This document shows, in pieces, positions 1 through 12,694 of a stretch of 12,694 bases of DNA. Below the pieces are notes generated by a model. It did not search any database. It saw nothing but the letters and a program-made list of their open reading frames with translations, and had not been told where the DNA came from. This DNA comes from an uncultured Eggerthellaceae bacterium (GTDB taxonomy: Bacteria > Actinomycetota > Coriobacteriia > Coriobacteriales > Eggerthellaceae), in the NCBI GenBank assembly GCA_902497215.1, contig CABVEH010000014.1, positions 1-12,694 on the forward strand. Direction: 5' to 3'. Position numbers and translations under genes: made by a program. How positions within the stretch are numbered: position 1 is the stretch's first letter; every line of letters starts with the position of its first letter.

Positions 1-865
1 CCGCACAGCTGCTCCGCTCGAGAAGCTGCGCATGGCTCTCCGTCCAGGTCGACCCAGTGTTCACCAGCACCAGCGAGAACTCCGCCGACAACAGGTCGAG
101 CACCTCCGCCAGGTGCGAGCACAGCTCTTCCGACCTTTCCAGGCGCTTGGGCGCCGAAACCAGCGAAGGAACCCCGTCCTGCGCCGCCGCAGAAAGGCTG
201 GCCACGTTAGACGGGTCCTCAAGTGCGTCGTCTATGCTTATCGAAGGAACCTTCCCTAGAGCGTGGCCCATGTCGCCGAACTGAAGGTCGCAGTCGACCA
301 CCACCGTCTTGAAGTCACGTCGGCTGCACATGAACGCAGCGATGGCGACGACCGCGCTCTTGCCCACGCCGCCGCTTCCGCTCATCACCGACAGCACGAA
401 CGCCGCCGGGTCCTTCTTCGGAACTATGGGCGGCACCAGCCTGAGCGCTTCGAGCCGTGTGGGGTCCTTCGCTGCAGACCGCTTGCGCTTTTCGGAATGG
501 AACCTCTCGCAGAACTCGGGCAGCGACAGCGTGCCCGTCAGGGCCGCTTGGGATGCCCGGCTGATGTCCGACCCGCTGGGAGACGCGGCAACCAGGTACA
601 CGGGTAGCATGCCGTTGTCGGCCCGCAAGGCCGCGGCCAGGTTTATGGCCGAAACGTCGTCGCTCGACGCGATCCACGCCTCGTCTATCCGGCCGGATTC
701 CATTGCGCCGTCGTTCCTTGCGGCCTCCCTGGCGCATTCCCTCGCCTTCGAGGCGTCAGCCACGGGAACGAGCCAGTCCATCGAATCAAGCTGCACGTCG
801 TCCAGCCCGATAAGGCCCGGATGCAGGATGCTCTCCCTGTCCGCGCCCAGAAGTATCTTTCCCAT
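1..865 (-). CDS. TadZ/CpaE-type pilus assembly ATPase (C-terminus cut by window edge)
   Basis: This frame is open from an ATG at 865-863 to the left edge, showing 288 residues with no stop. Residues 163-170 read GSGGVGKS, a ParA/MinD-type deviant Walker A. Residues 188-200 (VVVDCDLQFGDMG) match the second aspartate motif, whose DLQFGD form is typical of CpaE/TadZ. LVLVNTGS near 265-272 fits the Walker B strand. Residues 1-150 form a separate N-terminal domain, probably the degenerate receiver-like domain of this family. TadZ/CpaE proteins localise the Tad (Flp) pilus machine at the inner membrane. The start follows an AGGGGG ribosome site and lies 9 nt after the cpaB stop, so the two are co-transcribed. 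The family call is firm; which of the names TadZ or CpaE applies is not. Confidence 0.85.
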   Translation of the reverse strand, partial: MGKILLGADRESILHPGLIGLDDVQLDSMDWLVPVADASKARECAREAARNDGAMESGRIDEAWIASSDDVSAINLAAALRADNGMLPVYLVAASPSGSDISRASQAALTGTLSLPEFCERFHSEKRKRSAAKDPTRLEALRLVPPIVPKKDPAAFVLSVMSGSGGVGKSAVVAIAAFMCSRRDFKTVVVDCDLQFGDMGHALGKVPSISIDDALEDPSNVASLSAAAQDGVPSLVSAPKRLERSEELCSHLAEVLDLLSAEFSLVLVNTGSTWTESHAQLLERSSCA

Positions 866-874
866 AACCGCCCC

Positions 875-1540
875 CTATTCCTGCGCCGAGTCCGAAGACG
901 GCAGCGCGAAGTAGACCTGCAGGTTCTCGGACGCCGCCACAAGCTCCTCCACGGCGTCAGGTTTCACGGCCAAGGTCACCCAGGCGCTCGCCGACCCCAA
1001 GGAGGTGTCGGCAGCCATGCTTGTGGCCAGCACCTGCGCGCCGGTTGCCAGGCGCGTCGTCGAGCTGGGGCCGACCGCGTATACGTCGGCGAACATCCCC
1101 GCCGACAAGGCACCGCCCACGGCTTGCACGTCGCGGGCCGGCACGCTTACGGCGACCATGCCAGACGGCACGTCTATCTCTGACGCGTCGAAGCCGAAGC
1201 GGGACGAGGAGACCACTTCGCCGGCCAGTATCGTGGACCCGGCCTGCTTCCCCACCGCTTCCTTCTTGTCGGTGACGGCGTTGACGGGAAGCAGCGTGGC
1301 GACCCACGTGCGCGTCTCCACGTCGCCGTCGAGTATCGTCTCACCGGCCGGAATGTCGCGCTTGGCTACGCATACGTCCACCTGGTCTCCCCCGTATTTG
1401 GCCAACATGTCGGCCTGGGCCGCCTGGGCCTGATCGTTCACTTGCACGACGTACGCCCCTACGCACAGGGCGCACATCGCGCCGCACGCCAGCCCCACGG
1501 CGACGGACCGGTTTCTTCTGGACAGCTTGAACTTCGGCAT
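875..1540 (-). CDS. cpaB: Flp pilus assembly protein CpaB/RcpC (SAF domain)
   Basis: Translation gives 221 aa. A short basic N-terminus (residues 1-11) is followed by one membrane helix at about 13-33. A SAF-type domain spans about 55-112, with AKRDIPAGETI at 59-69 and a buried LAGEVV at 105-110. A second module has VPSGMVAVSVPARDVQAVGG at 124-143 followed by GMFADVYAV, the usual RcpC/CpaB core. The family sits on the outer face of the inner membrane and supports the Tad secretin or pilus channel. I chose the ATG at 1540 because it carries an AGGCGAGGTG ribosome site; the same frame stays open upstream, but that extension is Arg-rich and unlike the family. The tadZ/cpaE gene follows after 9 nt. 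The protein is somewhat short for CpaB, as is common in Actinobacteria. Confidence 0.88.
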   Translation of the reverse strand: MPKFKLSRRNRSVAVGLACGAMCALCVGAYVVQVNDQAQAAQADMLAKYGGDQVDVCVAKRDIPAGETILDGDVETRTWVATLLPVNAVTDKKEAVGKQAGSTILAGEVVSSSRFGFDASEIDVPSGMVAVSVPARDVQAVGGALSAGMFADVYAVGPSSTTRLATGAQVLATSMAADTSLGSASAWVTLAVKPDAVEELVAASENLQVYFALPSSDSAQE

Positions 1541-1832
1541 CTGCACCTCGCCTTTCTCGCTGCGCCCAGTATGACCACGCGGTTCGAAACCGCGGTTACA
1601 GAAAGCCGACATGCAGCAAGGCGCGAATCCGCCTGCAGGCAATGGCGCCGCCTTGGCCCCGACGGCCCTGAAGCTTTCCTGGCGCCGAGCCGTGGCTTGG
1701 CGCCAACGCGCATAGGACTTCTCCCGAACTAAACCGTTCCGTCTCGAAACAGTGCAGCACGAGCCGCGGCGACGCTTCGCCACGGGAAGGCGCTTATCAT
1801 GTACAGGAACGAAGAAGCGAAAAGGAGTGCCT
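1541..1832. other. Divergent spacer between cpaB and ppx/gppA
   Basis: About 290 nt with no convincing gene. It must hold the promoters of the Tad genes (minus) and the phosphatase (plus), but I see no clear -35/-10 pair on either strand. It is rich in inverted repeats: CGCGGTT at 1578-1584 pairs with AACCGCG at 1588-1594 across a 3-nt loop, 38 nt before the cpaB start, and a 24-nt hairpin with GGCGCC ends lies at 1681-1704. No known riboswitch consensus could be matched. Confidence 0.5.
1578..1594. promoter_or_regulatory. 7-bp perfect hairpin in cpaB leader
   Basis: CGCGGTT (1578-1584) and AACCGCG (1588-1594) are perfectly complementary around a CGA loop. It lies 38 nt upstream of the cpaB ATG, beyond the ribosome site. 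It could be a leader-RNA hairpin or a protein operator. No function is shown by the sequence. Confidence 0.35.
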
Positions 1833-2804
1833 ATGCGGCGCATCGGGATAATCGACCTGGGCTCGAACACGATAAGGCTCGTCGTGTACGAGCCAAGGCG
1901 GCACCTGCGGTCGAAGCGGCCTACCGACGGTGAATTGTCGTTCGATGACAGGTGGGACGACGGTGGAAAACGGCCGTTCCGCGAACTGATGGACAAGAAG
2001 AAGGTGGCGGGCCTTTCCGCCTACGTCGTCGACGGAAGCCTGACTTCCGAGGGAATAGACCGCGCAATCGACGTGCTCAAGGGGCTGGAAAGGGCTGCCG
2101 AGGGCATCGGATGCGACAAGATCCACGTGTTTGCGACGGCAGTCGTCCGCAACTGCAAGAACTCGAAGCAGGCCGCGGCGCATATAAGCGACGGCGCCAG
2201 GGTGAAGCTGGACGTCCTGAGCGCTGAAGACGAGGCGCATCTGGGGTTCGTGGGGGCCACATGCGACCGCAGGATATCCGACGGGACGCTTATCGACATC
2301 GGCGGCGGGTCCACCGAGCTGACGGCCATCCGCAACGGGCGCGACGTCCACGACCTCAGCATCCCCCAGGGGAGCGTGTCGTCGTACGCCGAGTTCGTCA
2401 GCCTCATACTTCCCAAGCCGGACGAGGCCGACGCGATCCGCAAGGCGTTCGCAGCGAAGCTGGACGGAATAAAGGGCCTCGGCGACTTCGAGTCGGCGAA
2501 GCTCTACGGAATCGGAGGAAGCGTTCGCGCCGTGGACAAGCTTTACGCCACCGCCTACATGGACGGCAAGCGTCCCGAGACCCTAAGCCTGGACCAGGTC
2601 GAATCGCTGCGGAAGCTTCTGCGCAAAGACCCGTCAAGGTTCGCCCATGCGGCCACCAAGGCTGTCCCCGAGCGCATGCATACCGTCACCACCGGCATGA
2701 TCATCGTCCATTCGCTGATGAAGCGGCTTGGCGCACAGACGCTGGAAGTATGCAAGTACGGCGTCCGCGAAGGCTACCTGCTCGAACGCGTCCTGAAGAT
2801 GTAG
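1833..2804 (+). CDS. Ppx/GppA-family phosphatase (short form)
   Basis: The protein has 323 aa and belongs to the actin-fold exopolyphosphatase / guanosine pentaphosphate phosphohydrolase family. Motifs in order: GIIDLGSNTIRLVVYE (5-20), the first phosphate loop; ATAVVRNCKNS (101-111); SAEDEAHLGFVGA (130-142), containing the catalytic acidic residue region; LIDIGGGSTEL (153-163), the second phosphate loop; and YGIGGSVRAVDKLY (225-238). The length fits the short form without the C-terminal HD domains of E. coli Ppx/GppA, as in mycobacterial and corynebacterial homologues. A charged insert (about 21-50) sits between the first phosphate loop and the following helix. The ATG at 1833 was chosen because AAAGGAG lies just upstream at 1821-1827; an in-frame start at 1752 is open but unsupported. 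Whether it acts on polyphosphate or pppGpp cannot be told. Confidence 0.9.
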   Translation: MRRIGIIDLGSNTIRLVVYEPRRHLRSKRPTDGELSFDDRWDDGGKRPFRELMDKKKVAGLSAYVVDGSLTSEGIDRAIDVLKGLERAAEGIGCDKIHVFATAVVRNCKNSKQAAAHISDGARVKLDVLSAEDEAHLGFVGATCDRRISDGTLIDIGGGSTELTAIRNGRDVHDLSIPQGSVSSYAEFVSLILPKPDEADAIRKAFAAKLDGIKGLGDFESAKLYGIGGSVRAVDKLYATAYMDGKRPETLSLDQVESLRKLLRKDPSRFAHAATKAVPERMHTVTTGMIIVHSLMKRLGAQTLEVCKYGVREGYLLERVLKM

Positions 2805-2823
2805 GGCGTTCGCGCAGCGCCGT

Positions 2824-2850
2824 GCTTTATTTCGCGAAACGAAATAAAGC
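2824..2850. terminator. Bidirectional terminator-like hairpin between convergent genes
   Basis: An 11-bp perfect stem, GCTTTATTTCG (2824-2834) with CGAAATAAAGC (2840-2850), closes a CGAAA loop. The stem is A/T-rich in its arms, so each strand carries its own T stretch. It begins 20 nt after the ppx/gppA stop, and its last base is also the last base of the TAG stop of the minus-strand gene, so it can serve both. Confidence 0.7.
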
Positions 2851-3530
2851 TATTGAATGGGGCCTCTGTAATGACTCTGCGGATGGTCCACGGGGCGTCC
2901 TTGGGGCTTGTAGATGCGCGTATGCGGAGAGTCAAGCGCGATCAGGCTCTGAATCTCGTCGTAGGTGTAGCCCTTGTTCTCGAAGATGCGGCCCTTCAAG
3001 CGCTCAAGAAGGTTCGCGGACTCCCATTCCTCGCCTTCCGACAGGCCTTTCCACTCCTCCTTGATGCCAATGGCCACAACGCTGGCCACGGCGATGCGCA
3101 GCTTGGTCAGCTCGGGCACGTGGATCTCGTAGCAAAGGCCCTTGTCCTTGAACTCCACCAGCTTCACGTGCACTGCCTTGTGGTCGTAGCTGGTAAGGGT
3201 TTCCTCCACGATGTTGAACGGCGGCTCGTTGAAGCTTCCGTAAAGGTCCCACACCATGCCTTCGACGTAGTAGTGCTTCTCGATCACGTAGGTGTGCAGG
3301 ATGTACTCGTAGCGCTCGTAGCGGATGTAGTAGTTCAGCACGCGGTTGTCAGGCTTGATAAGCCCCACTTCACCGCCCATGCGGCCCCAGATCTGCACGG
3401 GGTCCTTTTCGGACTTCCAACCCTTCTTGCATTTGAACTGCAGGAATATCTCGCCGTCCTCGTACCAGGTGTCGAAGTCCTCGTGCTTGGCGATGGCATC
3501 CTTCTGCATGTATACCTTGTTGAACTTCAC
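2850..3530 (-). CDS. Conserved-looking protein of unknown function, 226 aa
   Basis: I do not recognise this protein with confidence. The frame has a clean ribosome site (GAGGGG, 8 nt before a GTG start at 3530) and normal G/C-ending codons, so it is real. There is no signal peptide, membrane helix or metal motif. Residues about 60-110 are rich in Tyr and short beta-like stretches, and a single hydrophobic helix (LRIAVASVVAIGIKEEW) follows at about 145-161. This strands-then-buried-helix plan loosely recalls tubby C2/LURP-one-like proteins, but that is a guess only. The C-terminal tail (about 205-226) is Pro- and His-rich and probably disordered. It lies 88 nt downstream of the YkgJ-type gene and has its own candidate promoter. 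Confidence 0.75.
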   Translation of the reverse strand: MKFNKVYMQKDAIAKHEDFDTWYEDGEIFLQFKCKKGWKSEKDPVQIWGRMGGEVGLIKPDNRVLNYYIRYERYEYILHTYVIEKHYYVEGMVWDLYGSFNEPPFNIVEETLTSYDHKAVHVKLVEFKDKGLCYEIHVPELTKLRIAVASVVAIGIKEEWKGLSEGEEWESANLLERLKGRIFENKGYTYDEIQSLIALDSPHTRIYKPQGRPVDHPQSHYRGPIQ

Positions 3531-3561
3531 GCGCGCCCCTCACTGTTCGGGTGTTTCATAC

Positions 3562-3567
3562 ATTCTA
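3562..3567 (-). promoter_or_regulatory. Candidate -10 (TAGAAT) for the 226-aa gene
   Basis: TAGAAT on the minus strand, 31 nt upstream of the GTG start. The same hexamer stands in front of the amidohydrolase and mscL. I see no good -35 at 16-18 nt, so the call rests on the hexamer and its position. Confidence 0.45.
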
Positions 3568-3618
3568 CCGTGAATGAAAGCGCATGACGGAAGTTGCGCG
3601 TGTCAGGGGACGTACGCC

Positions 3619-4059
3619 TCACAAAGAGTCTATGTACTTCTGCATCTCGTCGTCGATGAGGCCTTCGCCGAAATAGTCTATCTCGCGGGCGTCGCGGAAG
3701 TCGCCATGAAGCCATGCGCCACGCATGTCGAGCCAATGGCGGTCGGACTCGCGTTCCACTTCGGGATGCTCGGCAAGTATGGCGTTGCGGGTACGCTCAC
3801 AGCTGTGAAGCCGGCATGTCTGCGAACGCACGGGCCACACCATGCAACGCTTGTCCTCGTCGAGCAACGGGCAGGTGAACGGGCCGTTGTCGCGAGCCAC
3901 CACGCCATTCTCGTCAATGTATTCGCGGATTCGCTCCACCTCTTCAAGCGTGATGGCAACGATGCGTATGTTGCAGCAGTTCCCGCACTGCCTGCATCCC
4001 TCATACCCGTTGAGTTCGGTTGCTGTATTCCTGCTTTCCATGCCCATAGGATAACCCAT
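3619..4059 (-). CDS. YkgJ-type cysteine-cluster (Zn/Fe-binding) protein
   Basis: A 146-aa protein with eight cysteines in the spacing of the YkgJ/Fe-S cluster-type family: C22xxC25xxC28C29 near the N-terminus, then C63 (TCPLL), C72, C82 and C87. Members bind zinc or an iron-sulfur centre; their biochemical role is mostly unknown. The C-terminal third is acidic and helical. The start is uncertain: ATG codons at 4059, 4047 and 4041 all lack a ribosome site, and all keep the full cysteine set. A TATCCT sequence (4048-4053, minus) is placed so that transcription could begin at the 4041 ATG, giving a leaderless message. The first ATG lies only 9 nt from an inverted-repeat element, which supplies whatever lies upstream. 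Confidence 0.85.
   Translation of the reverse strand: MGYPMGMESRNTATELNGYEGCRQCGNCCNIRIVAITLEEVERIREYIDENGVVARDNGPFTCPLLDEDKRCMVWPVRSQTCRLHSCERTRNAILAEHPEVERESDRHWLDMRGAWLHGDFRDAREIDYFGEGLIDDEMQKYIDSL
4048..4053 (-). promoter_or_regulatory. Possible -10 (TATCCT) giving a leaderless YkgJ-type mRNA
   Basis: TATCCT on the minus strand with exactly 6 nt between it and the ATG at 4041-4039. No ribosome site precedes any of the three candidate starts, which favours a leaderless transcript. The -35 region would fall inside the neighbouring inverted repeat and is weak. Confidence 0.3.
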
Positions 4060-4067
4060 TGCGCGTG

Positions 4068-4169
4068 CGTGACAGTGGTCGGGTCATTTGTCACATTGCG
4101 GAGAGTGGCAAACCGACAAGTATGGTTTCTTTCGCAATGACCCGACCACTGTCACGGACCACTGTCACG
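4068..4169. repeat. REP/MITE-like element: 21-bp inverted repeat plus 13-bp tandem repeat
   Basis: Positions 4068-4088 are the exact reverse complement of 4136-4156 (21 bp, no mismatch), with 47 nt between. Pairing resumes as GCG (4098-4100) with CGC (4133-4135) after a 9-nt one-sided bulge, and an inner AAACC/GGTTT stem can form. The outermost 13 bases of the right arm, GACCACTGTCACG, occur twice in tandem (4144-4156 and 4157-4169). There is no open reading frame inside. Such palindromic units resemble REP sequences moved by RAYT transposases or small MITEs, but no transposase is in the window. Confidence 0.75.
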
Positions 4170-4172
4170 CAT

Positions 4173-4194
4173 TTCGTCCGGCAGGACGAAGTAT
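4173..4194. repeat. Recurring 22-nt hairpin, copy 1
   Basis: TTCGTCC (4173-4179), loop GGCA, GGACGAA (4184-4190), followed by GTAT. On the minus strand this 22-nt string is the same as 6648-6669 on the plus strand except for one loop base. It lies directly beyond the terminator of the MFS gene. Confidence 0.7.
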
Positions 4195-4227
4195 AAAAAA
4201 GAAGGGGCCCCCGCTTGGGGCCCCTTC
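4191..4227 (-). terminator. Rho-independent terminator of the MFS gene
   Basis: On the minus strand, GAAGGGGCCCC pairs with GGGGCCCCTTC (11 bp, arms 4217-4227 and 4201-4211, 5-nt loop) and is followed by TTTTTTATAC. It lies 34 nt after the MFS stop codon. This is the clearest intrinsic terminator in the window. Confidence 0.92.
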
Positions 4228-4261
4228 CAGGTCGGATGAAACCGACTGGTGCGACTTGACT

Positions 4262-6028
4262 CTACTTGTAGAGCTTGTCGACGCCAGCAGCCTTCTCCTT
4301 GCCAAGGCCCATTCCGCCAAACACGAAGAAGTAGATGAACGGAAGGAGCATGGCGATGAGCATGATCGGGAGAGCCATGTCGGTCTTGGAGAAGCCGGGG
4401 ATGGCCAGCGGGCAAACGATGCAACCGATGAAGTTGATGATCACCACGCCGATCATGATGTAGAAGCGACCGTTGCCGTCCGTCTCGGAGAGCGGATTCT
4501 CCTCGGTCATCTTCTGGAGCTGGTCCATGGTCTTGCCGCCGGTGTTCTTGACGAACAGCAGGGGCTGCTGGAGGCCGAGCACGAACGGGATGAGCAGGAC
4601 GAGAACGACCATCGACCAGTTGTTGGACATGGTGCCGTTGACGTCATGCTGGAACATTGCCAGACCGGCAGCAGCGCCGAGAACGATGGACGAGCCGGAG
4701 CCACCGAAGCGGGCGAACGCCTGGCACCAGGAAGTGCCGGTGTTGCGCAGCGTGGTGGGATAGGACTCGGGCATCAGCGGCTGAACGGCGGTGATGGCGT
4801 AGTTCAGGCAGAAGCCGAAGAGCAGCATCAGGAAGATGCAGGGAACGAAGTTGCCAGCAGCAGCGCCAGCCAGCGGAGCGCCGTTCACAGGAGCCTCGCC
4901 GGGGAACATAGGCACGAACACGGAGCAGGCGATGATGGCGATGATGCAGGCCACCCAGCCGATCCACAGTGCGCGCTTACGTCCGATGGCGTCGGAGATG
5001 AAGCCGACGACGATGTTGGATGCGATAGCAGCAACGTTGTTCCAAGTCTGCAGAGTAACGGACTCAGCAGGGGTGAAGCCATTGCCCTGGAACCAGGTGG
5101 GGATCCAGGCGTTCATGCCATAGACGCAGAACTGGCCGACGAAGTAAGCGGACCAGATGGCGCAGGTGGCAACGATGAACTTGCTGGAGAACAGAACCGC
5201 CGGGCCAGACTTCGCAGGCTTCGGAGGAACGATCAGCAGGTTGGGATCGAACTCGACGTCAACGTGACGGGTGGCCTTGACGATCTGGGTAAGGCGAGCG
5301 CACGCCTTCTCCTTCTGGCCATGGTTGGCGTACCAGTGCGGGGTCTCATGCATGCAGAAGAACAGGATGATTCCGTAAACCACAGGCAGAGCGCCGATCA
5401 GGTAGCAAAGACGCCAGTTCTGGCAGAGCTCTTCGCCCTTGACCATGATGGTGCCGTCGGTGAGGCCAGGGATGATCGGGTTCGGGTTGGAGCAGATGGG
5501 AGCAGCAACCAGACCAGCGATAACCCAGCCCATGACCATGAAGGCCATGCCGAAGGTAACGAAGATGCCGCGCTGCTTGGAGGGCATGCTCTCGGAGAAC
5601 ACCGTGGTGACGACCGGGATGCAGGAGCCCACGCCGAAGCCAGCGATCAGGCGGAACGCGCAGAAGAACGCGTAGTCAGGCGCGAAGGCCTGGGGCAGCG
5701 TGAACAGACCATAGAAGATAACCGCGATGGTGAGCATCTTCTTACGGCCGATGGCGTCGGACATGATGCCTCCGACGGCGCCGCCGAGAACCATGCCGAG
5801 CAGGCCCCAAGTGGTCAGCGAGCCGGTAAGTGCGGCGATGGGCTGGCCAGCAGCGATCTGCTCTGCAAAGAACGTAGGTGCAACGTAAGTGTTGGTGGAA
5901 TTAACGATCATGAAGTCATAGCCGTCGAAGATCATGGCGAATGCCAGGAGGACGAACACGACCCAGGTGTGGCTGGAAATGCCAGCGCGGTCGATGACCT
6001 CAGATACTGTGAACTCTTTACCGTCCAT
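4262..6028 (-). CDS. MFS transporter, aromatic-acid:H+ symporter-like, C-terminally extended
   Basis: A 588-aa membrane protein. TM1 contains DGYD (35-38), the charged motif of the aromatic acid:H+ symporter (AAHS) family. The loop between TM2 and TM3 has GGIMSDAIGRKKML (86-99), MFS motif A, and the second half repeats it as GFISDAIGRKRAL. Arg126 in FRLIAGFGVG matches motif B. A long extracytoplasmic loop follows TM5. After the usual 12 helices come a hydrophilic linker and two more strongly hydrophobic segments, so about 14 helices are likely. The substrate is not readable; a small organic acid is plausible from the family. The start is the ATG at 6028, 5 nt after AGGGGG; a TTG one codon upstream is less likely. 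No enzyme or regulator gene is adjacent, and the gene has its own terminator, so it is transcribed alone. Confidence 0.9.
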   Translation of the reverse strand: MDGKEFTVSEVIDRAGISSHTWVVFVLLAFAMIFDGYDFMIVNSTNTYVAPTFFAEQIAAGQPIAALTGSLTTWGLLGMVLGGAVGGIMSDAIGRKKMLTIAVIFYGLFTLPQAFAPDYAFFCAFRLIAGFGVGSCIPVVTTVFSESMPSKQRGIFVTFGMAFMVMGWVIAGLVAAPICSNPNPIIPGLTDGTIMVKGEELCQNWRLCYLIGALPVVYGIILFFCMHETPHWYANHGQKEKACARLTQIVKATRHVDVEFDPNLLIVPPKPAKSGPAVLFSSKFIVATCAIWSAYFVGQFCVYGMNAWIPTWFQGNGFTPAESVTLQTWNNVAAIASNIVVGFISDAIGRKRALWIGWVACIIAIIACSVFVPMFPGEAPVNGAPLAGAAAGNFVPCIFLMLLFGFCLNYAITAVQPLMPESYPTTLRNTGTSWCQAFARFGGSGSSIVLGAAAGLAMFQHDVNGTMSNNWSMVVLVLLIPFVLGLQQPLLFVKNTGGKTMDQLQKMTEENPLSETDGNGRFYIMIGVVIINFIGCIVCPLAIPGFSKTDMALPIMLIAMLLPFIYFFVFGGMGLGKEKAAGVDKLYK

Positions 6029-6440
6029 CAATACCCCCTAGATAAGGATAGTTTCACGATTCCGCCGCTTGATGGAAAGCAGACGGAACGCCTTGGAAGT
6101 TTCGACCCACGCGGTAGCAAGACTGGCTTTGCGACGAGAATTAAGGGTATTGCGAACATCTCAATCATCTAGGGCTGCTGAGGTGTGCGTAATAGCTAGA
6201 GAAAACCCCTGCTTGGACAAGGATTGCTCGACCCCTTCGAGACTACGCCGCAGTCAGAAGAAACGACCGCGCGTAATCCTCCTTTCAGTCTTCTCTTCCC
6301 ATGTTGATGATTTGTCTATTAAAGAACTCAGCCAAGATTTCCTTTATAGGCAAATCACACCGTTCGCGCTTGTTTTGCAGCCACTTACGGCGCAAAAAAC
6401 GCGTTGTATGTAGGATATGTGATGAAGGTAGCAAGGTCAA

Positions 6441-6480
6441 TACAAAACTTCAGGGCCGAAGAATGTTTTCCTCGACCCTG
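6441..6480 (-). terminator. Weak terminator-like hairpin
   Basis: CAGGG-C-CGA (6451-6459) pairs with TCG-A-CCCTG (6472-6480) around a 12-nt loop. On the minus strand it is followed by AAGTTTTGTATT. It could stop minus-strand transcripts that read past the FKBP gene and antisense to the tRNA. The U-tract is poor, so the call is tentative. Confidence 0.3.
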
Positions 6481-6540
6481 AAAAAACGCCCTGCCCAGAC
6501 GCAAATGTTTCCGGCTTGCACGCGCTGGGAAACCCGCGAT

Positions 6541-6549
6541 TGTGCTAAT
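6541..6549 (+). promoter_or_regulatory. Extended -10 of tRNA-Val
   Basis: TGTGCTAAT: a TG motif one base before GCTAAT, ending 17 nt before the tRNA. No good -35 lies at 16-18 nt; a TTGCAC at 6516-6521 is too far, consistent with an extended -10 promoter. Confidence 0.45.
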
Positions 6550-6566
6550 ATTTGCGTTTCGAACGT

Positions 6567-6641
6567 GGTCGCGTGGCGCAGCGGGAGCGCAGGTCCCTTA
6601 CAAGGACAAGGTCGCAGGTTCAAATCCTGCCGCGACCACCA
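6567..6641 (+). tRNA. tRNA-Val (anticodon UAC), CCA encoded
   Basis: The acceptor stem GGTCGCG (6567-6573) pairs with CGCGACC (6631-6637), followed by discriminator A and an encoded CCA (6639-6641). The D stem is GCGC/GCGC, the anticodon loop is CTTACAA giving UAC, and the T arm is GCAGG-TTCAAAT-CCTGC. UAC reads GUA valine codons; A35, C36 and A73 fit valine identity. One oddity is that the anticodon stem GGTCC/GGACA has a G27-A43 mismatch at its top. Confidence 0.95.
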
Positions 6642-6647
6642 TTCTGG

Positions 6648-6669
6648 ATACTTCGTCCTACCGGACGAA
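6648..6669. repeat. Recurring 22-nt hairpin, copy 2 (possible terminator)
   Basis: TTCGTCC (6652-6658), loop TACC, GGACGAA (6663-6669), preceded by ATAC. It is the same as the minus strand of 4173-4194 apart from one loop base. It sits between the 3' end of tRNA-Val and the stop of the convergent FKBP gene and could end both transcripts; TTATTA follows on the plus strand. Confidence 0.65.
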
Positions 6670-6672
6670 TTA

Positions 6673-7191
6673 TTACCTATAATCGTCGCCTTGGTCGCCA
6701 CCCAGCAGCTTCGACTGCTGCTTCATGTGCTCCATCTTCTCCTTGTGGCTGACGAAGTTCTCGGGGGCGTCCTCGATGCCGAGTATTTCCACCTCGTAGG
6801 TGAGCTTCTGCCCCGCAAGCGGATGGTTCATGTCGAACGTGACGACGCCGTCCTCGATTCCGATGACGGTTGCAATGACCGGGTTCCCATCGTCGGAGTT
6901 ATGCATGGTTACGCGCTTGCCAGGCTTGATGCCCGACACGGGGATCTGGTCCAGCGGGATCTTCTGGGTGAAGTCCTCGAGGTATTCGCCGTACGCGTCG
7001 TACTCGCTTATGGTGAACGTCTTCTTCTCGCCCACCTCGTTCATCTTGAGGATCTCGTTCTCGAACCCGTCCACGACGAGGTCCATGCCGGTCTGGAACT
7101 CCATAGGATTGTCGGCGTCGGCAAATCCGAAGACGGTGCCATCTTCAAGGGTTCCCTTGAAAGCGAGCTTTACGGTGGATCCAAGTTCCAT
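6673..7191 (-). CDS. SlyD-like FKBP-type peptidyl-prolyl isomerase
   Basis: 172 aa. SlyD-type architecture: the FKBP core begins with GSTVKLAFKGTLEDGTVFGF (4-23), and the flap holds the inserted chaperone domain, marked by YGEYLEDFTQKIPLDQIP (67-84). The FKBP fold closes with FDMNHPLAGQKLTYEVEIL (119-137), the most conserved stretch of the family. The histidine- and cysteine-rich metal-binding tail of E. coli SlyD is absent; the tail is short and charged. The enzyme isomerises Xaa-Pro bonds and binds unfolded chains in the cytoplasm. The ATG at 7191 follows AGGAAGG with 7 nt spacing; the frame extends 8 codons further up without a better signal. It starts 16 nt after the trigger factor stop and is the last gene of the folding operon. 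Confidence 0.9.
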   Translation of the reverse strand: MELGSTVKLAFKGTLEDGTVFGFADADNPMEFQTGMDLVVDGFENEILKMNEVGEKKTFTISEYDAYGEYLEDFTQKIPLDQIPVSGIKPGKRVTMHNSDDGNPVIATVIGIEDGVVTFDMNHPLAGQKLTYEVEILGIEDAPENFVSHKEKMEHMKQQSKLLGGDQGDDYR

Positions 7192-7207
7192 TTCGATACC
7201 TTCCTGT

Positions 7208-8518
7208 CTATTCAACGATCGTGACGTCGGCGGTGTCCGTCAGCCATTCGGTGGCCTTCGTCTGGCGCGCCATCTTGCGCACGTCCGCCATGCGGTTGGC
7301 GTTCTCCCACTTCTCGCGGGACTCCTGGCCGCCTTCGCCCTCGAACATCGCCGCGATGTCCTCCTCGGTGACCTCGAGGCCCTTCTCGTTGAAGATGGCC
7401 TCGAGCGTGCAGTCTATCTTTGCACGGTGCACGGCCTCGGCCTCGATGTTCTCCCTCATCGCCTCGCCCTCGACCTGGTTCTGCAGCATCCACTGCTGCA
7501 GGTTCGTGCCGTCCTTTTCAAGGTTCTGCATGAACTCGCGGGCGACGTCCTGTCGGATGAAGTCGACGTAATAGTCGGGCACGTCGCCGTCCAGGCGCTG
7601 TATGGCCTGCTCGACCACGCGGTCGACCTTGATCTTGGGAAGCTCGCGCTGCTTCTGGATGCCGATGTTGCGGCGCATCTGGTCGCGCATGTCGGAGGCG
7701 TCGGTGCAGCCCACCTTCGCGGCCAGCTCGTCGTCGAGCGCGGGAAGGATCAGGCGGCGGAACCCCTTCACGTCGACGACCGCATGCAGATGTCCGTCAC
7801 CGAAGTCGGACGTGCCGTCCTCCTTGATGGCGTCGAAGTCGAACTCGAGCGTCTCGCCCACCTTGGATCCCACGACCTTCTCGTCGAAGGTGATGGGCAT
7901 CGTGCCGTTGCCCAGGCCCACCATGCGGCTTTGAGCAGCCAGGCCGCCCACCACCTTGTCGTTGGAGTCGGTGACCGTGATGCTTGCCTTCACATAGTCG
8001 CCCATCTCGGCCTCGTGGTCGGGGTCGTCGATGTCCTCGAAGGTGTGGTAGTAGTCCTGCAGCGCCTCAAGGTGGCGGTCGATCTCGGTCTCGGTGGGTT
8101 CCTCGGGAGGCATCTCGATGGACACGGGGCCGTAGTCGGTAAGCTTCATGACCGGGGCGACCGGGCCCGACACCGTGAATTTGAACGGCTTGCCCTCTTC
8201 CAGCATGTCGTCGACGTGGAAGTCGGGGTCTTCGATGAAGATGACGTCCTGGCCGTCGATCGCGGCCGGCGCAAGCTCGTTGATAAGGGTCTCGGCGACG
8301 CCGCCCATGGCGTTCGCATGGCCGCCGACGCTCTGCTCGAGCACTGCGCGCGGGGCCTTCCCCTTGCGGAAGCCCTTCAGCTCGCGCTTCTGTATGTCTG
8401 CGAAGAAACGCTTCGACGCGGCGTCCACGTCTTCGGGGGACGCCACGATGGTCATTACCAGTTCCTGCTTGCCGTCGTCGGCGTATTCGCGGTTGATTTC
8501 GGTGATTTCCACTTCCAC
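7208..8518 (-). CDS. tig: Trigger factor (ribosome-associated chaperone)
   Basis: 436 aa, the normal family length. The N-terminal domain has the ribosome-docking signature GFRKGKAP (49-56), which contacts protein L23 beside the exit tunnel. A FKBP-type isomerase domain follows at about 165-250 and the helical C-terminal chaperone domain at about 258-436. The protein cradles nascent chains as they leave the ribosome. The start is GTG at 8518, 7 nt after the upstream stop; AAGGCGG overlaps this junction. A second in-frame GTG two codons later is possible. The upstream neighbour resembles its own C-terminal domain, and a SlyD-like isomerase follows. Confidence 0.95.
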   Translation of the reverse strand: MEVEITEINREYADDGKQELVMTIVASPEDVDAASKRFFADIQKRELKGFRKGKAPRAVLEQSVGGHANAMGGVAETLINELAPAAIDGQDVIFIEDPDFHVDDMLEEGKPFKFTVSGPVAPVMKLTDYGPVSIEMPPEEPTETEIDRHLEALQDYYHTFEDIDDPDHEAEMGDYVKASITVTDSNDKVVGGLAAQSRMVGLGNGTMPITFDEKVVGSKVGETLEFDFDAIKEDGTSDFGDGHLHAVVDVKGFRRLILPALDDELAAKVGCTDASDMRDQMRRNIGIQKQRELPKIKVDRVVEQAIQRLDGDVPDYYVDFIRQDVAREFMQNLEKDGTNLQQWMLQNQVEGEAMRENIEAEAVHRAKIDCTLEAIFNEKGLEVTEEDIAAMFEGEGGQESREKWENANRMADVRKMARQTKATEWLTDTADVTIVE

Positions 8519-8525
8519 ACCCGCC

Positions 8526-9302
8526 TTACAGGGACACGAAAGCGTCGGGGAACTGCTTGTTGGCGTTCAACACGTCCTGGCTGGTGTCGCCGTAGCGCAG
8601 CCACTCGGTGTCGGTCTCGCGGCGCTTGATCATGGCGTTCTCCATGACGATCTTCAGCGCCTTCGTCTTCAGCGCGTAGTCCTCCATCTGCTCGAGGCGT
8701 CCGTCCATCTCGATCTGGCGGCGCTTGTACGCCTTGTCGTCGATGCTGTCGCCCGGGATGATGGCGTAGAAGTCCTCGGCGTCGAGGGTAAGCCCCTCGT
8801 GGTCGGCGTAGGCCGCAAGCGCGGAATCCTCCAGCAAGCCCTGTATGGCGCGCTGGCGGTTGTCGGCGTAAAGCTGCTCCTCGCTTATTCCGCGGCTGGC
8901 GCAGAACGTCTCGACGTCCATGCCCTGGCGGGTGATCATCTCCTCGAGGCGGTAGTTTGCCGCATAGACGGAATCTTCCACGAGGTCTTCGGGAAGGTCT
9001 TCCACCAGGCGCTTGGCCAGCTCGGCGCATACGACGGCCTGGTCGGCAAGTTCCTGCACCTCGCGGTTGTCGCGGTACATGTTGTAGCGGATGAAGATCA
9101 GCAGCTCTTCGACGTTCTTGAAGTCTTCGCAGTGGGCGTCGACCCACGCGTCGGTGAGCTTCGCCTCCTCGCCGTCCTTGGCAACGTTGTAGTTCAGCCA
9201 GTTGATGGCCTGCTGCCTTATTACTTCCTCGGGGATCCTGACCTCTTCGGCGACCACGTAAACGGGGTCGTACGAGGTCAATGTGAACTTGGGTTTCGCC
9301 AT
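8526..9302 (-). CDS. Free-standing trigger-factor C-domain-like protein
   Basis: 258 aa, no signal peptide or membrane helix, strongly helical and acidic. By eye, residues about 49-182 align with the C-terminal domain of the trigger factor encoded next to it (about 261-392) with few gaps. For example, LTDAWVDAHCEDFKNVEELL matches LDDELAAKVGCTDASDMRDQ, and SALAAYADHEGLTLDAEDFY matches CTLEAIFNEKGLEVTEEDIA. It has neither the GFRxGK ribosome-docking motif nor an isomerase domain. Residues about 185-258 are a different helical tail. The ATG at 9302 has AGAGGT upstream; an ATG 8 codons earlier lacks one. The stop lies 7 nt before the trigger factor start, so translation is probably coupled. A chaperone or trigger-factor-modulating role is inferred. 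Confidence 0.85.
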   Translation of the reverse strand: MAKPKFTLTSYDPVYVVAEEVRIPEEVIRQQAINWLNYNVAKDGEEAKLTDAWVDAHCEDFKNVEELLIFIRYNMYRDNREVQELADQAVVCAELAKRLVEDLPEDLVEDSVYAANYRLEEMITRQGMDVETFCASRGISEEQLYADNRQRAIQGLLEDSALAAYADHEGLTLDAEDFYAIIPGDSIDDKAYKRRQIEMDGRLEQMEDYALKTKALKIVMENAMIKRRETDTEWLRYGDTSQDVLNANKQFPDAFVSL

Positions 9303-9342
9303 CGGTAACCTCTCGACTCGATGCATGCAATTTCATCCAGCT

Positions 9343-9348
9343 ATTGTA
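9343..9348 (-). promoter_or_regulatory. -10 (TACAAT) of the folding operon
   Basis: TACAAT on the minus strand, 40 nt upstream of the first start codon of the three-gene operon. The -35 region is not clear. No other promoter-like sequence is seen between the three genes, so this probably drives all of them. Confidence 0.5.
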
Positions 9349-9399
9349 GCGGATATTGGTGTGCGGAATATGGCTCAAGAAACAGCAGGGGCGGCCATT

Positions 9400-9625
9400 C
9401 GCAGGGGTGGAGCGAGGTAAGCCAAAGGAGCCGAGAAATCCACTCGCGAGGAGCGGAAGCCTCCGTTGCGAGTTAATCATTTCCTAAAGCTGCATGATTG
9501 GCCAAAGTGAGCGAGCGGCGCCTCCGGTGGTTCTAGTTCGCGCGAAAGCCCGACGACGCGTACTTGGGTACGCGAGGAGGGCTTGGAGGGCGAAGGAGAA
9601 CCGTCGGGGCGTCCGCGCAGCGTCT
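9400..9625 (+). ncRNA. Candidate structured RNA or hairpin repeat cluster
   Basis: Several perfect helices can form in order. GTGGA (9407-9411) pairs with TCCAC (9439-9443). ACTCGC (9442-9447) pairs with GCGAGT (9468-9473), enclosing GGAG/CTCC. AATCAT (9475-9480) pairs with ATGATT (9494-9499). GCGCG (9540-9544) pairs with CGCGC (9614-9618), enclosing CCCGACG (9549-9555) with CGTCGGG (9602-9608), and within that CGCGTAC (9557-9563) with GTACGCG (9568-9574) on a TTGG loop. Seven GGA triplets lie on the plus strand, many in purine-rich single-stranded parts. No known RNA family (RNase P, SRP, tmRNA, 6S) could be matched. A degenerate intergenic repeat is the main alternative, and the strand is a guess. 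Confidence 0.3.
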
Positions 9626-9627
9626 GG

Positions 9628-9659
9628 TAATACTTCGGCCGTCTAAGGCCGAAGTATTA
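9628..9659. terminator. 13-bp hairpin overlapping the USP stop codon
   Basis: TAATACTTCGGCC (9628-9640) pairs perfectly with GGCCGAAGTATTA (9647-9659) around a 6-nt loop. The TAA stop of the USP gene is inside the stem. There is no U-tract on the minus strand, so it may act as an mRNA 3'-end stabiliser or a factor-dependent stop rather than a classical terminator. Its outer ATACTTCG matches the start of the recurring 22-nt hairpin. Confidence 0.55.
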
Positions 9660-10136
9660 TTTGACCGTAACAACGGGAATGCTGGTCTCGTGCAGCACCG
9701 CGTAGCTGACGCTGCCCAGCATGGCGCGAAGCGCGCCCAGTCCGCGGCGGCCCATCACGATCATGTCCACCTCGTGGTCTTCGGCGTAGTCGCAGATGCC
9801 GGCCGCGGGCTTCACGGCCACGGTGGCATCGAACGTCACGTTGCATTCCACCGAATCCACCAGGTTGGAGGCCGCCTCCCTCATCTGGTCGCAGGCGATC
9901 TTCTTGGCGTTGTCGATGGCTTCGTCGTAGGCCTTCATGTCGGGGAAGATCTGCTGCATGCCCGGCGTGGGCGAGTTCGCAAGGTCGCCGCTGAGGCCAA
10001 GCGACCCGATGGACACCACGGACACGATGTGCATGGTCGCCTGAGGGTCGTCGCCGATCAGGTTCTTCGCCACCACTAGCGCCTCCTTGGCGGGGTCGGA
10101 CCCGTCGAATGCCACCATGATGTTCTTGTACAGCAT
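9657..10136 (-). CDS. Universal stress protein (UspA family)
   Basis: 159 aa, one USP domain. The N-terminal strand and loop YKNIMVAFDGSDPAKEAL (3-20) is the usual start of the fold. The nucleotide-binding loop is GRRG (129-132) followed by GSVS (141-144), and the last strand is IPVVTV (153-158). In ATP-binding members the pattern is G-2x-G-9x-G(S/T); here only 8 residues separate the second and third glycines, so nucleotide binding is likely but not assured. USPs bind ATP or modulate stress survival in the cytoplasm. The ATG at 10136 has AAAGGGGAC upstream; the frame also extends 13 codons further up, with an unlike sequence. It is a single gene, divergent from the amidohydrolase. Confidence 0.92.
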   Translation of the reverse strand: MLYKNIMVAFDGSDPAKEALVVAKNLIGDDPQATMHIVSVVSIGSLGLSGDLANSPTPGMQQIFPDMKAYDEAIDNAKKIACDQMREAASNLVDSVECNVTFDATVAVKPAAGICDYAEDHEVDMIVMGRRGLGALRAMLGSVSYAVLHETSIPVVTVK

Positions 10137-10186
10137 GATTGTCCCCTTTCGCGCATGTCGCCATTTGCCTGGCATGCCTTGCCAGC

Positions 10187-10192
10187 ATCATA
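10187..10192 (-). promoter_or_regulatory. Candidate -10 (TATGAT) for USP gene
   Basis: TATGAT on the minus strand, 50 nt upstream of the USP ATG. The -35 is unclear. A GGCATGCC palindrome lies between it and the start codon (10171-10178). Confidence 0.35.
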
Positions 10193-10255
10193 CATTCGCC
10201 CTGCCACGCCATCCGCCGGAACGCCCCATGTGTAACCAGACAGTCGCATTGACGC

Positions 10256-10261
10256 TAGAAT
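10256..10261 (+). promoter_or_regulatory. Candidate -10 (TAGAAT) for amidohydrolase
   Basis: TAGAAT 28 nt upstream of the GTG start. The hexamer is identical to those before mscL and the 226-aa gene. No good -35 is seen at normal spacing. Confidence 0.45.
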
Positions 10262-10289
10262 AGGGCGCGACCGACAGAAAGAGAGCACC

Positions 10290-11087
10290 GTGGAAGTCAT
10301 CGATTGCCATTGCCATGTCTACCCGAAGAAGATAGCCGAAAAGGCCGTCGGAGCCGTCGGAGCGTTCTACAACATCCACATGGACGCCGAGGATGGAACC
10401 ACCGAGGGCCTGCTGGCCCTGTGCGAAGGGTCTCCTATCGGGCGTTTCGTGATCCACTCGGTGGCCACCCGCCCCGACCAGGTGCGCTCCATCAACGACT
10501 TCGTAGCCGACGAATGCAAGGCGCATCCCGAGTTCACCGGGTTCATGACCCTGCACCAGGACCTGACCGACGACGACCTGCAGTCCGAGGTTGACCACGC
10601 ATGCGAACGCGGCCTTCGCGGAATCAAGCTGCATCCCGACACGCAAAAGGTGGACATGGACGACCCGCGCCTGATGCGCGTGTACGAGATCGCGCAGTCG
10701 CGGAAGCTTCCGATGATCGTGCACACCGGCGACTACCGCTACGATTATTCGCACCCGCGCCGCATGAAGCGCATCCTGCACGAGTTCCCCGACCTGGTGG
10801 TGGACGCCGCCCACTTCGGGGGATGGTCGGTGTTCGACCTTGCCGTGGAATACCTTGAGAACGAGAACTGCTTCATGGACATGTCAAGCTCGATGGCGCT
10901 GATCGGGCGCCGTCGCACGCGCGAACTCACCCGCCTTCACGGCACCGACCGCATCATGTTCGGCAGCGACTTCCCCATGTGGAGCCCCACCGCCGAGCTT
11001 GACGAGTTCGTGGCGGCCGGCTTCACCGACGACGAGCTTGAGAATCTTCTTCGTAACAACGCGTTGCGCTTCCTTGGGGAGGCTTAA
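10290..11087 (+). CDS. Amidohydrolase family 2 (TIM-barrel metal-dependent hydrolase)
   Basis: 265 aa, the usual length. Metal and catalytic positions are all present: the first-strand HxH in DCHCHVYP (5-12), GIKLHP (the lysine strand, about 111-116), the histidine in IVHTG, the histidine in AAHFGGW, and the aspartate in FGSDFPMWSP near the C-terminus. This is the pattern of the ACMSD-like amidohydrolase-2 group, which act as hydrolases or nonoxidative decarboxylases of small organic acids. The exact substrate cannot be read from the sequence. It starts at GTG (10290) with a purine-rich AGAAAGAGAG upstream; there is no alternative ATG near. It is followed by mscL, which has its own promoter-like sequence, so it is probably transcribed alone. 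Confidence 0.9.
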   Translation: MEVIDCHCHVYPKKIAEKAVGAVGAFYNIHMDAEDGTTEGLLALCEGSPIGRFVIHSVATRPDQVRSINDFVADECKAHPEFTGFMTLHQDLTDDDLQSEVDHACERGLRGIKLHPDTQKVDMDDPRLMRVYEIAQSRKLPMIVHTGDYRYDYSHPRRMKRILHEFPDLVVDAAHFGGWSVFDLAVEYLENENCFMDMSSSMALIGRRRTRELTRLHGTDRIMFGSDFPMWSPTAELDEFVAAGFTDDELENLLRNNALRFLGEA

Positions 11088-11101
11088 GACTTCCCTAGAA
11101 T
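11074..11101 (+). promoter_or_regulatory. mscL promoter (TTGGGG - 16 nt - TAGAAT)
   Basis: TTGGGG at 11074-11079, inside the end of the amidohydrolase gene, and TAGAAT at 11096-11101, 39 nt before the mscL ATG. This is the best -35/-10 pair in the window, though the -35 matches only its first half. Confidence 0.5.
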
Positions 11102-11140
11102 GCCTTTATGACCGCAAACCGACGCAGGCATGGAGGCATC

Positions 11141-11617
11141 ATGAAAGGCAAAGGGCTAGTCACCGAATTCAAGGACTTCATCAACCAGGGCAACGTGATG
11201 GACATGGCCGTCGGCATCATCATCGGCGCCGCGTTCACGGCTATTGTCACGTCGCTGGTCGACAACATCATCACGCCGCTGATCATGCTGGTCACAGGCG
11301 GCAACGGAACCGAGATAAGCGGGCTTCAGATTCCCGTCGGAGGTGGCCAGTACCTGGACTTCGGGGCCTTCATCGGCGCGATCATCAACTTCCTGATCAT
11401 CGCGCTTTGCGTGTTCTTCATCGTGAAGGCCTTCAACAAGATGCGCGACCATTCCAAGAAGCTGGTGCGCCGCAACGCCGCCGGCGAGGAAGTAGCCGAA
11501 GTCGCACCGGTATGCCCTTACTGCAAGGAGGAAGTGAACGTGGGAGCCACGCGCTGCTACCACTGCGCCGCCGACCTTCCCGAGCCCGCCAAGCCCACCG
11601 AGCAAGTGGTTGCCTAA
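11141..11617 (+). CDS. mscL: Large-conductance mechanosensitive channel MscL with C-terminal zinc ribbon
   Basis: 158 aa. The N-terminal amphipathic helix and TM1 read LVTEFKDFINQGNVMDMAVG (6-25) and then IIIGAAFTAIVTSLVDNIITP, the near-invariant MscL pore segment. A periplasmic loop with GGGQY is followed by TM2 (FIGAIINFLIIALCVFFIV) and a cytoplasmic basic stretch. In place of only the short C-terminal bundle helix, residues about 128-148 carry CPYC and CYHC, two cysteine pairs of a zinc ribbon. MscL opens under membrane tension to release solutes on osmotic downshock. The ATG at 11141 has GGAGG 5 nt upstream; the frame is open 11 codons further up without support. Its TAA overlaps the TAG of the convergent pbpA-like gene. 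Confidence 0.95.
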   Translation: MKGKGLVTEFKDFINQGNVMDMAVGIIIGAAFTAIVTSLVDNIITPLIMLVTGGNGTEISGLQIPVGGGQYLDFGAFIGAIINFLIIALCVFFIVKAFNKMRDHSKKLVRRNAAGEEVAEVAPVCPYCKEEVNVGATRCYHCAADLPEPAKPTEQVVA

Positions 11618-12694
11618 AGAGTACCGTTTGCCTGCAGGGCGGCCTGCAGCACCGAGCGGGCCTGAGTGGGCGCATGGGCTGAGGTTCCCACCTCTTCAAG
11701 CATGAGCGCAACCACTACGTTGCGTCCGCCATCGGCGTCGGCGATTCCGACGAACCAGCTGTCATCGGCCTTGCCTTCGTGCTCGGCGGTGCCGGTCTTG
11801 CCCGCCACCTGCACGCCAGGAATGGCCGCCGCAGTGCCGGTTCCGTTGTCGACGACGCCCTTCATGACCTCGAGCACGCGATTTGCGACCTCGGTGCTGG
11901 TGGCCTGCCAAAGCTTGCTTGGCGACGCCGAATACCCGCGGGTTCCGTTCGAGTTGTAGACACCTTCCACGAGGTAGGGATTCAGAATGGTGCCGCCGTT
12001 GGCTATGCCGCAGCCAACCAGCGCCATCTCGAGCACGGTGGCCTGCGGGCCGGCAGGGCTTTCGTGTTCGCCGACGGGCTCGCCGGCGGCGGCCCAGGCG
12101 GTCTCCCACGTGGTCATCTCCTCGGGGTCGGGCATTAGCGACTCGGCCACGGGAAGGTCGAACTTCAGCTCGTCGTTGAAGCCGAACTTCTTGGCGGCGT
12201 CCACGAGCCTCTGCGACCCCAGCTCGACGCCCACCTGACCGAACACCGTGTTGGACGAAACCTCGAACGCGCGGGCCAGCGACACCTCGCCGTAGTCGCG
12301 GTCGTTGAAGTTGGTGACCGGCGCGTTGCCTATGTCCAGCTCGGAAGGCGCATCGTACACCGTGCTTTCGGTGGCCACGCCGTCCTCTAACGCTGCGGTC
12401 AGCGACACGATCTTGAAGGTGGAGCCCGGCGCGTACAGCGACTGGGTGGCGCGGTTCAGCAGCTCGGACGAGTCGGACGACCCCGAGCCGGACGAAACGC
12501 CCTTCAGCACCTCGTCGACGTTGGACGCGTCGTAGGTGGGCGACGACGCCATGGCCAGCACGGCGCCAGTCGTTGGGTCGATCACGACGCAGGCGCCCTT
12601 GTACCCGGCGATTGCGTCCTGCGCCGCCTGCTGTACCTTCGAGTTCAGCGTAAGCGTGACGTCGTTGCCAGGCTGGGACACCCCGGCCAGCGAG
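11614..12694 (-). CDS. pbpA: Class B penicillin-binding protein, PbpA-like (N-terminus cut by window edge)
   Basis: The frame is open to the right edge; 359 residues are visible, covering nearly the whole transpeptidase domain. Catalytic motifs are all present: STFK (nucleophile Ser and Lys, in YAPGSTFK), SSN (in EVSSNTVF) and KTGT (in AGKTGTAEH). The visible part begins SLAG and continues with a VTLTLNSKVQQAA segment like that before the catalytic domain of PbpA. AIPGVQVAGKTGTAEH closely recalls mycobacterial PbpA. The enzyme crosslinks peptidoglycan outside the membrane and is the target of beta-lactams. A Ser/Gly/Asp-rich insert lies about 20 residues before the catalytic serine. It is the last gene of its transcript: mscL meets it tail to tail, with no terminator between. 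Confidence 0.85.
   Translation of the reverse strand, partial: SLAGVSQPGNDVTLTLNSKVQQAAQDAIAGYKGACVVIDPTTGAVLAMASSPTYDASNVDEVLKGVSSGSGSSDSSELLNRATQSLYAPGSTFKIVSLTAALEDGVATESTVYDAPSELDIGNAPVTNFNDRDYGEVSLARAFEVSSNTVFGQVGVELGSQRLVDAAKKFGFNDELKFDLPVAESLMPDPEEMTTWETAWAAAGEPVGEHESPAGPQATVLEMALVGCGIANGGTILNPYLVEGVYNSNGTRGYSASPSKLWQATSTEVANRVLEVMKGVVDNGTGTAAAIPGVQVAGKTGTAEHEGKADDSWFVGIADADGGRNVVVALMLEEVGTSAHAPTQARSVLQAALQANGTL

Follow-up and report, generated by a model that had tools for sequence, protein, structure and literature searches.

Free-standing bodies of the chaperone trigger factor (TF) have been described before. In Mycoplasma, MPN555/MG_377 is reported as an essential TF homologue consisting of the C-domain only, with a solved structure (PDB 1zxj), a predicted contact to SecA and a full TF encoded elsewhere in the genome (PMC13047044). 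We analysed a stretch of 12,694 nucleotides (nt) from an uncultured Eggerthellaceae bacterium (assembly GCA_902497215.1, contig CABVEH010000014.1, positions 1 to 12,694; hereafter the window), which encodes such a body as a separate protein of 258 amino acids (aa), here labelled TFCD, beside a TF with a ribosome-binding signature, TF-B. Judged by homology, TFCD belongs to the trigger factor family and is not a full ribosome-associated trigger factor. Since TFCD comes together with this second, ribosome-binding TF in the genomes searched, our data suggest that TFCD and TF-B work as a pair. The initial annotation knew of no described function for such a protein; a precedent exists in MPN555/MG_377, and because free-standing TF bodies are known, TFCD is not a new kind. 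As far as the open-licence literature shows, what is new is the Coriobacteriia family, the company of a second ribosome-binding TF and the conserved tail; among the open-licence titles listed, none dealt with the TF of Coriobacteria, Eggerthella or Coriobacteriia.

TFCD and MPN555 share the absence of the N and FKBP domains (PMC13047044), but they differ in several respects. MPN555 belongs to Mycoplasma and not to Coriobacteriia, sequence searches with TFCD found no match to it, and it comprises ∼190 residues in the crystal, whereas TFCD has 258 with a conserved tail and, unlike MPN555, is accompanied by an extra ribosome-binding TF. The TFs of Escherichia coli and Thermotoga maritima (PDB 1w26, 3gty) contain ribosome-docking and isomerase domains, both of which are absent from TFCD. 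Chloroplast Tig2 reportedly retains the opposite part of the protein, the ribosome-binding domain. Like TFCD, it is a naturally truncated TF (PMC11731035). N-domain-less homologues of Myxococcus xanthus and others are likewise extra TF-family copies without the ribosome-binding part; those described from M. xanthus retain the FKBP domain that TFCD has lost as well (PMC11559001). According to the same survey, 367 of 390 genomes with multiple TFs contain one TF with a ribosome-binding site (RBS) and just 23 contain more than one, TF duplicates are mostly lost, and overproduction of full TF is harmful unless the N-domain is removed (Wan et al. 2024; PMC11559001). Measured against these figures the TFCD-bearing group is unusual, since here TF-B and the canonical trigger factor, TF-A, both carry the motif.

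Architecture and predicted fold of TFCD

Pfam Trigger_C matches TFCD at residues 64-178 (E 6.2e-5), the score of 23.5 bits being barely above the cut-off of 22.7, and TIGR00115 (tig) matches residues 42-183 (E 6.8e-11) with 41.7 bits, far below the equivalog cut-off of 180.2. In the same kind of profile search Trigger_N and FKBP_C gave no match at E<=1, and the GFRxGxxP motif is absent from the 258-aa sequence. When the families of TFCD (47 sequences) and TF-B (16 sequences) were compared by hhalign, the probability was 96.2 and the E-value 2.5e-9. When aligned together with their paralogues, TFCD residues 1-40 fall on TF-B 119-158 and residues 47-229 on TF-B 259-436, with an identity of 19% (43/224 columns), and six residues of TFCD (41-46) occupy the place of the FKBP domain.

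The initial annotation had aligned residues 49-182 by eye, nearly gap-free, with the adjacent TF. The profiles support this alignment, and it is free of gaps save for two residues near its start; a further gap of three residues follows just after residue 182. The motifs named for its two ends, LxDxx and GL(E/T)(V/L)xxED(I/F), read KLTDAW against ALDDEL and GLTLDAEDF against GLEVTEEDI in our alignment, and homology reaches beyond residues 49-182. That the ribosome-docking and isomerase domains are missing agrees with the lack of Trigger_N and FKBP matches and with the six residues left at the FKBP position.

The best PDB matches of an AlphaFold model of TFCD are TFs and MPN555. In the model, residues 1-230 can be superposed on residues 110-422 of E. 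coli TF and residues 2-232 on MPN555 (1zxj), and the predicted local distance difference test score (pLDDT) goes down to 47-55 across the last 18 residues. By sequence, a phmmer search of TFCD against PDB found nothing at E<=1, and the TFCD profile retrieved weak TF matches alone (best E 0.028). SurA-fold proteins also match the model by structure, which might point to a plain SurA/PrsA-type protein merely resembling the TF C-domain. This is hardly credible; SurA and PrsA reach a lower structural score, TFCD has no parvulin domain match and no export signal was seen. SurA_N and rotamase profiles gave no match at E<=1. Trigger_C, tig, hhalign and the AlphaFold model, which predicts the TF body fold, thus bear out the TF ancestry and the free-standing C-domain. 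As judged from sequence and model, TFCD is a TF cut down to linker and C-terminal body: it lacks the domains for ribosome binding and FKBP and carries its own conserved tail. A fusion of TFCD to FKBP or TF was rejected, since the extra N-termini of four over-long homologues (299, 301, 326 and 442 aa) appear by eye to be over-extended starts.

Distribution with TF-B and conservation

Our protein search identified 173 TFCD relatives, most of the 120 listed being 256-262 aa long. Among 296 genomes of the class Coriobacteriia, 14 contain a TFCD orthologue (E<1e-100), the next matches, which include ordinary TFs, lying at 3e-24 or weaker. Co-occurrence was followed in 138 genomes of the Eggerthellaceae-type family that includes Ellagibacter isourolithinifaciens (G001, locus L006), a genus that we take to belong to Eggerthellaceae; genome completeness is not given for these, so gene absences may be gaps. 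TFCD is present in 21 and TF-B (E<1e-100) in 20 of these genomes, every one of the 20 lying within the 21. In the 21st TFCD genome, G309 (locus L012), TF-B is cut off where the contig stops, and 62% identity is seen over its last 127 aa. TF-B was found in none of the 117 genomes without TFCD, and five further matches of the TF-B search (31-32% identity) coincide with Trigger_N places of canonical TF-A. Fisher's test for co-occurrence gives p 3e-25, or 3e-23 with G309 scored as lacking TF-B, for related genomes that are not independent. Both proteins are also present in G006 (locus L022), outside the family. Among viral contigs, 47 stretches fitted a TFCD pattern, and none was confirmed as a relative.

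The ribosome-binding motif is kept in TF-B of all 19 readable family genomes (of 21; in G309 this part lies past the contig end, and G301 is unread), and GFRKGKAPR is invariant across 16 aligned TF-B rows. TF-A was found in 20 of the 21 TFCD family genomes, the exception being G305, which has TF-B; TF-B is additional to the canonical TF. The nine TFCD genomes of an 11-genome Coriobacteriia set (G001-G003, G006-G011) have two GFRxGKAP-bearing TFs each, TF-A and TF-B (the motif of G002 TF-B being read from locus L014), and two-signature pairs were located at L059/L057, L074/L075, L083/L084 and L087/L092 (G001, G006, G009 and G010). In G001, TF-A is followed by clpP and clpX.

On a tree of TF-A from 60 family genomes (20 with TFCD and 40 of the 117 without; G305, with no canonical-TF match, was omitted) the presence pattern of TFCD needs six changes, at least three of which are forced by well-supported branches. 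TFCD and TF-B have therefore either been jointly acquired or lost on a few occasions, or been transferred horizontally.

Sequence conservation was compared over 17 loci that contain TFCD, TF-B and an FKBP gene (the window and 16 others, 136 pairs). TFCD has a mean pairwise identity of 70.4%, against 61.3% for TF-B and 69.3% for FKBP; TFCD is more alike than TF-B in 130 of the 136 pairs, and more than FKBP in just 76. The C-domain of TF-B alone reaches 57.8%, TFCD residues 184-225 reach 80.3% and residues 226-258, which include the tail, 74%. The ratio of nonsynonymous to synonymous substitution rates (dN/dS) of TFCD is 0.15-0.39 in five of six chosen pairs, the unsaturated ones. TFCD is thus under purifying selection. 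It is a functioning protein under stronger constraint than TF-B, the TF with the similar body. The loss of whole domains, and the observation that TF duplicates are mostly lost (PMC11559001), would fit a decaying, functionless TF duplicate, but this idea, already contradicted, deserves next to no weight in view of the dN/dS values, a length near 258 aa in most of the 120 relatives listed, a mean identity of 70% and the position of TFCD apart from the neighbouring TF in the tree described below.

The strongest rival is an independent off-ribosome holdase or secretion chaperone, in which TFCD alone would hold unfolded or pre-secretory clients and might pass them to SecA as proposed for MG_377/MPN555, TF-B being a mere neighbour. 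We consider this possible, though rather doubtful. It leaves the joint presence and absence of TF-B and TFCD over 138 genomes unexplained, and the closer conservation of TFCD than of the TF-B C-domain, together with its numerous invariant charged residues, fits a specific partner more readily than a promiscuous holdase. Where the initial annotation had left a choice between holdase, TF partner and regulator, the co-occurrence with TF-B favours partner or regulator over an unrelated holdase.

Gene order, paralogues and the window locus

In the window TFCD is the first of a three-gene run of body, TF and FKBP (Table 1). The gaps are 7 nt from the TFCD stop to the TF-B GTG and 16 nt from TF-B to FKBP, and the three genes therefore look like one transcription unit in the window. 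An AGAGG resembling a ribosome site lies directly upstream of the TFCD ATG.

Table 1. Coordinates of TFCD, its parts and the other features of the window
Feature	Position	Strand	Description	Basis
TFCD (label for the free-standing trigger-factor body)	8526..9302	minus	258 aa; ATG at 9302; stop 8526-8528	
TFCD codons 1-40	9183..9302	minus	equivalent of the linker between the TF domains (strand FTLTSYDPV + helix)	aligned to TF-B 119-158
TFCD codons 47-229	8616..9164	minus	predicted TF C-terminal client-binding body	profiles, alignment, model
TFCD codons 230-258 + stop	8526..8615	minus	conserved tail, no counterpart in TF-B	alignment
TF-B (window trigger factor)	7208..8518	minus	436 aa, GTG start; N, weak FKBP and C domains	profiles
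Ribosome-binding signature of TF-B	8351..8374	minus	GFRKGKAP	sequence
SlyD-like FKBP prolyl isomerase	6673..7191	minus	172 aa	profiles
tRNA	6567-6638	plus	beyond the FKBP gene	
226-aa open reading frame	2850-3530	minus	no Pfam match at E<=1	

The placement of TFCD directly before a TF holds for the window but not for its relatives. The 20 genomes with complete TFCD and TF-B genes carry them on one contig in 18 cases, 591-6622 bases apart, and on separate contigs in two, which shows chromosomal linkage. Of the 18 pairs, 12 are convergent and six are encoded on one strand, TF-B preceding TFCD each time; none has TFCD first. The order seen in the window is therefore an exception, tight translational coupling is not the general mechanism, and the view that position directly before a TF is part of the function is not supported. 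By eye, no family other than TF-B and FKBP stood out among the neighbours in Eggerthellaceae loci, several recurrent clusters being antisense frames.

In all 18 one-contig relatives an FKBP gene lies between TFCD and TF-B, whereas in the window it follows TF-B. The FKBP domain of window TF-B itself is under the Pfam cut-off (FKBP_C E 0.021), yet a separate FKBP gene lies 16 nt downstream, and the isomerase job may have shifted from TF-B to this protein. Both observations, as well as a close FKBP orthologue in all 21 TFCD family genomes, could speak for TFCD as an in-trans chaperone module of the SlyD-like FKBP, free body and free isomerase together rebuilding the body-plus-isomerase half of TF. 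SlyD proteins have a chaperone insert of their own, which should make a separate body unnecessary. Moreover, close FKBP orthologues (E<1e-44) occur in 38 of the 138 family genomes and thus also in 17 without TFCD, so that the outer genes, TFCD and TF-B, can be absent together while the gene that separates them in other genomes is present. In G006 (L022), no FKBP of the window type was detected in the interval from TFCD to TF-B. We regard an isomerase module as quite improbable.

Trigger_C has 2-7 places in each of the 11 Coriobacteriia genomes, 46 in total. Two of these matches (G003:C12 and G010:C159) look by eye like PrsA/SurA-type lipoproteins and were removed ahead of tree construction. 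The tree groups are TF-A, TF-B, TF-C (N-domain retained, signature lost), TFCD, E_short, E_long, an Atopobiaceae-type body-only group and a 183-aa form. TF-A and TF-B stand together with a support of 99, and TFCD stands apart. A tree forcing TFCD together with TF-B is disfavoured by the approximately unbiased test (p-AU 0.024), in a data set with long branches and groups named after the tree was seen. This goes against both a recent tandem duplication of TFCD from the neighbouring TF and the initial view of TFCD as a copy of that protein. A single origin of all short forms appears in the best tree lacking the 183-aa form (support 80) and is not demonstrated.

E_short is a second body-only type; its TF-like companion, E_long, lacks the RBS. 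In G009 and G010 (L091:3872-6088; L085) the second body-only protein (236-284 aa) is encoded directly 5' of the TF-like protein, and in G002 (L061, L062) the two lie ∼9 kb apart. E_short and E_long form the same kind of pair as that of the window, from another paralogue group. Atopobiaceae-type genomes have a body-only TF protein of their own, found in 32 of the 296 class genomes at E<1e-55; genes recurring across the 28 loci analysed (L026-L046, L049-L055) include release factor 1 (15), prmC (9), a tsaC-like gene (9) and ribosomal protein L31 (7), each named from one member per gene cluster. The shortest form, a 183-aa TF C-domain-like protein, is encoded in Ellagibacter (G001, L058:3896-4444; Trigger_C E 5.3e-10). 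Two TF-A proteins from loci titled Adlercreutzia, in G003 and G008 (L068:3884-4978, 365 aa; L081:3497-4606, 370 aa), have Trigger_N and Trigger_C and no FKBP match; to judge from these matches, they have, like TFCD, lost the isomerase domain that would separate linker from body. Relatives of the 226-aa open reading frame of the window were found with 65-70% identity in L004, L007, L017 and L020, and with 41-44% in L006, L018 and L025.

Proposed role of TFCD as partner of TF-B

We tentatively propose that TFCD is a chaperone body that would act off the ribosome and without ATP as a partner of TF-B, possibly through the ribosome-docking domain of TF-B, a reading that we hold to be possible but somewhat short of an even chance. 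The contact would most likely be made as in the E. coli TF dimer, in which each cradle can hold the ribosome-docking domain of the partner molecule. For E. coli TF, binding between the client-binding and ribosome-docking domains, both in isolated form, is reported, and one docked conformer has the ribosome-binding site occluded within the cavity (PMC5722895). By analogy, the docking domain of TF-B would sit in TFCD, and the resulting heterodimer would both store TF-B off the ribosome and add a second client-binding cradle.

Several observations weigh against this proposal. The E. coli contact is weak, the dimer of an RBD-SBD construct having a dissociation constant (KD) of ∼63 µM (PMC5722895), and as the tree places TFCD apart from TF-B, an interface between them need not be inherited. 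Co-translation of both proteins is not conserved, as gene order varies. Linkage and shared ancestry partly explain the co-occurrence, and six changes are a small number from one gene tree, for which joint horizontal transfer may also be responsible. In Mycoplasma, MPN555/MG_377 is predicted to bind SecA and not to act with TF (PMC13047044). Three M. xanthus homologues without N-domain refolded GAPDH but, according to Wan et al., did not prevent its aggregation (PMC11559001), so that a holding activity of a lone body is not assured, a point that counts against the independent holdase as well. Family membership itself is not evident from simple searches: BLASTP of TFCD against TF-B is not significant (E 0.063), and hence the alignment by eye needed profile support; PF05698 is precomputed on 28 of the 120 TFCD relatives listed; the orthologue L003 is under the Trigger_C cut-off (19.4 vs 22.7 bits); and the Trigger_C search overlooked TFCD in five of nine genomes having it (G002, G003, G008, G009, G010). 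The TFCD family sits at the edge of the Pfam Trigger_C model.

Because the E. coli domains bind each other and removal of the N-domain cures the harm of overproduction (PMC5722895, PMC11559001), TFCD could cap the docking domain of TF-B. A more specific version of the partnership, which we think unlikely as it stands, is that TFCD serves as a dedicated cap and that occupancy of its cradle sets the amount of TF-B reaching the ribosome, which would make two ribosome-binding TFs tolerable despite the dosage constraint. If this were true, the recurrence of a body-only protein, of the second type, next to a TF-like one (L085, L091) would make the pairing of body and full TF a two-part chaperone system of general occurrence in Coriobacteriia.

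TF is regarded as a single-copy chaperone, since additional copies that bind the ribosome do harm (PMC11559001). Here, a group of gut bacteria keeps two RBS-bearing TFs, one of which, TF-B, was seen only in genomes that also encode a detached TF body. Two questions thereby become testable: how these bacteria tolerate a second ribosome-binding TF, and whether a client-binding TF body can work in trans as a regulator or co-chaperone. TFCD represents a natural separation of the TF modules, which helps to ask what each module does alone.
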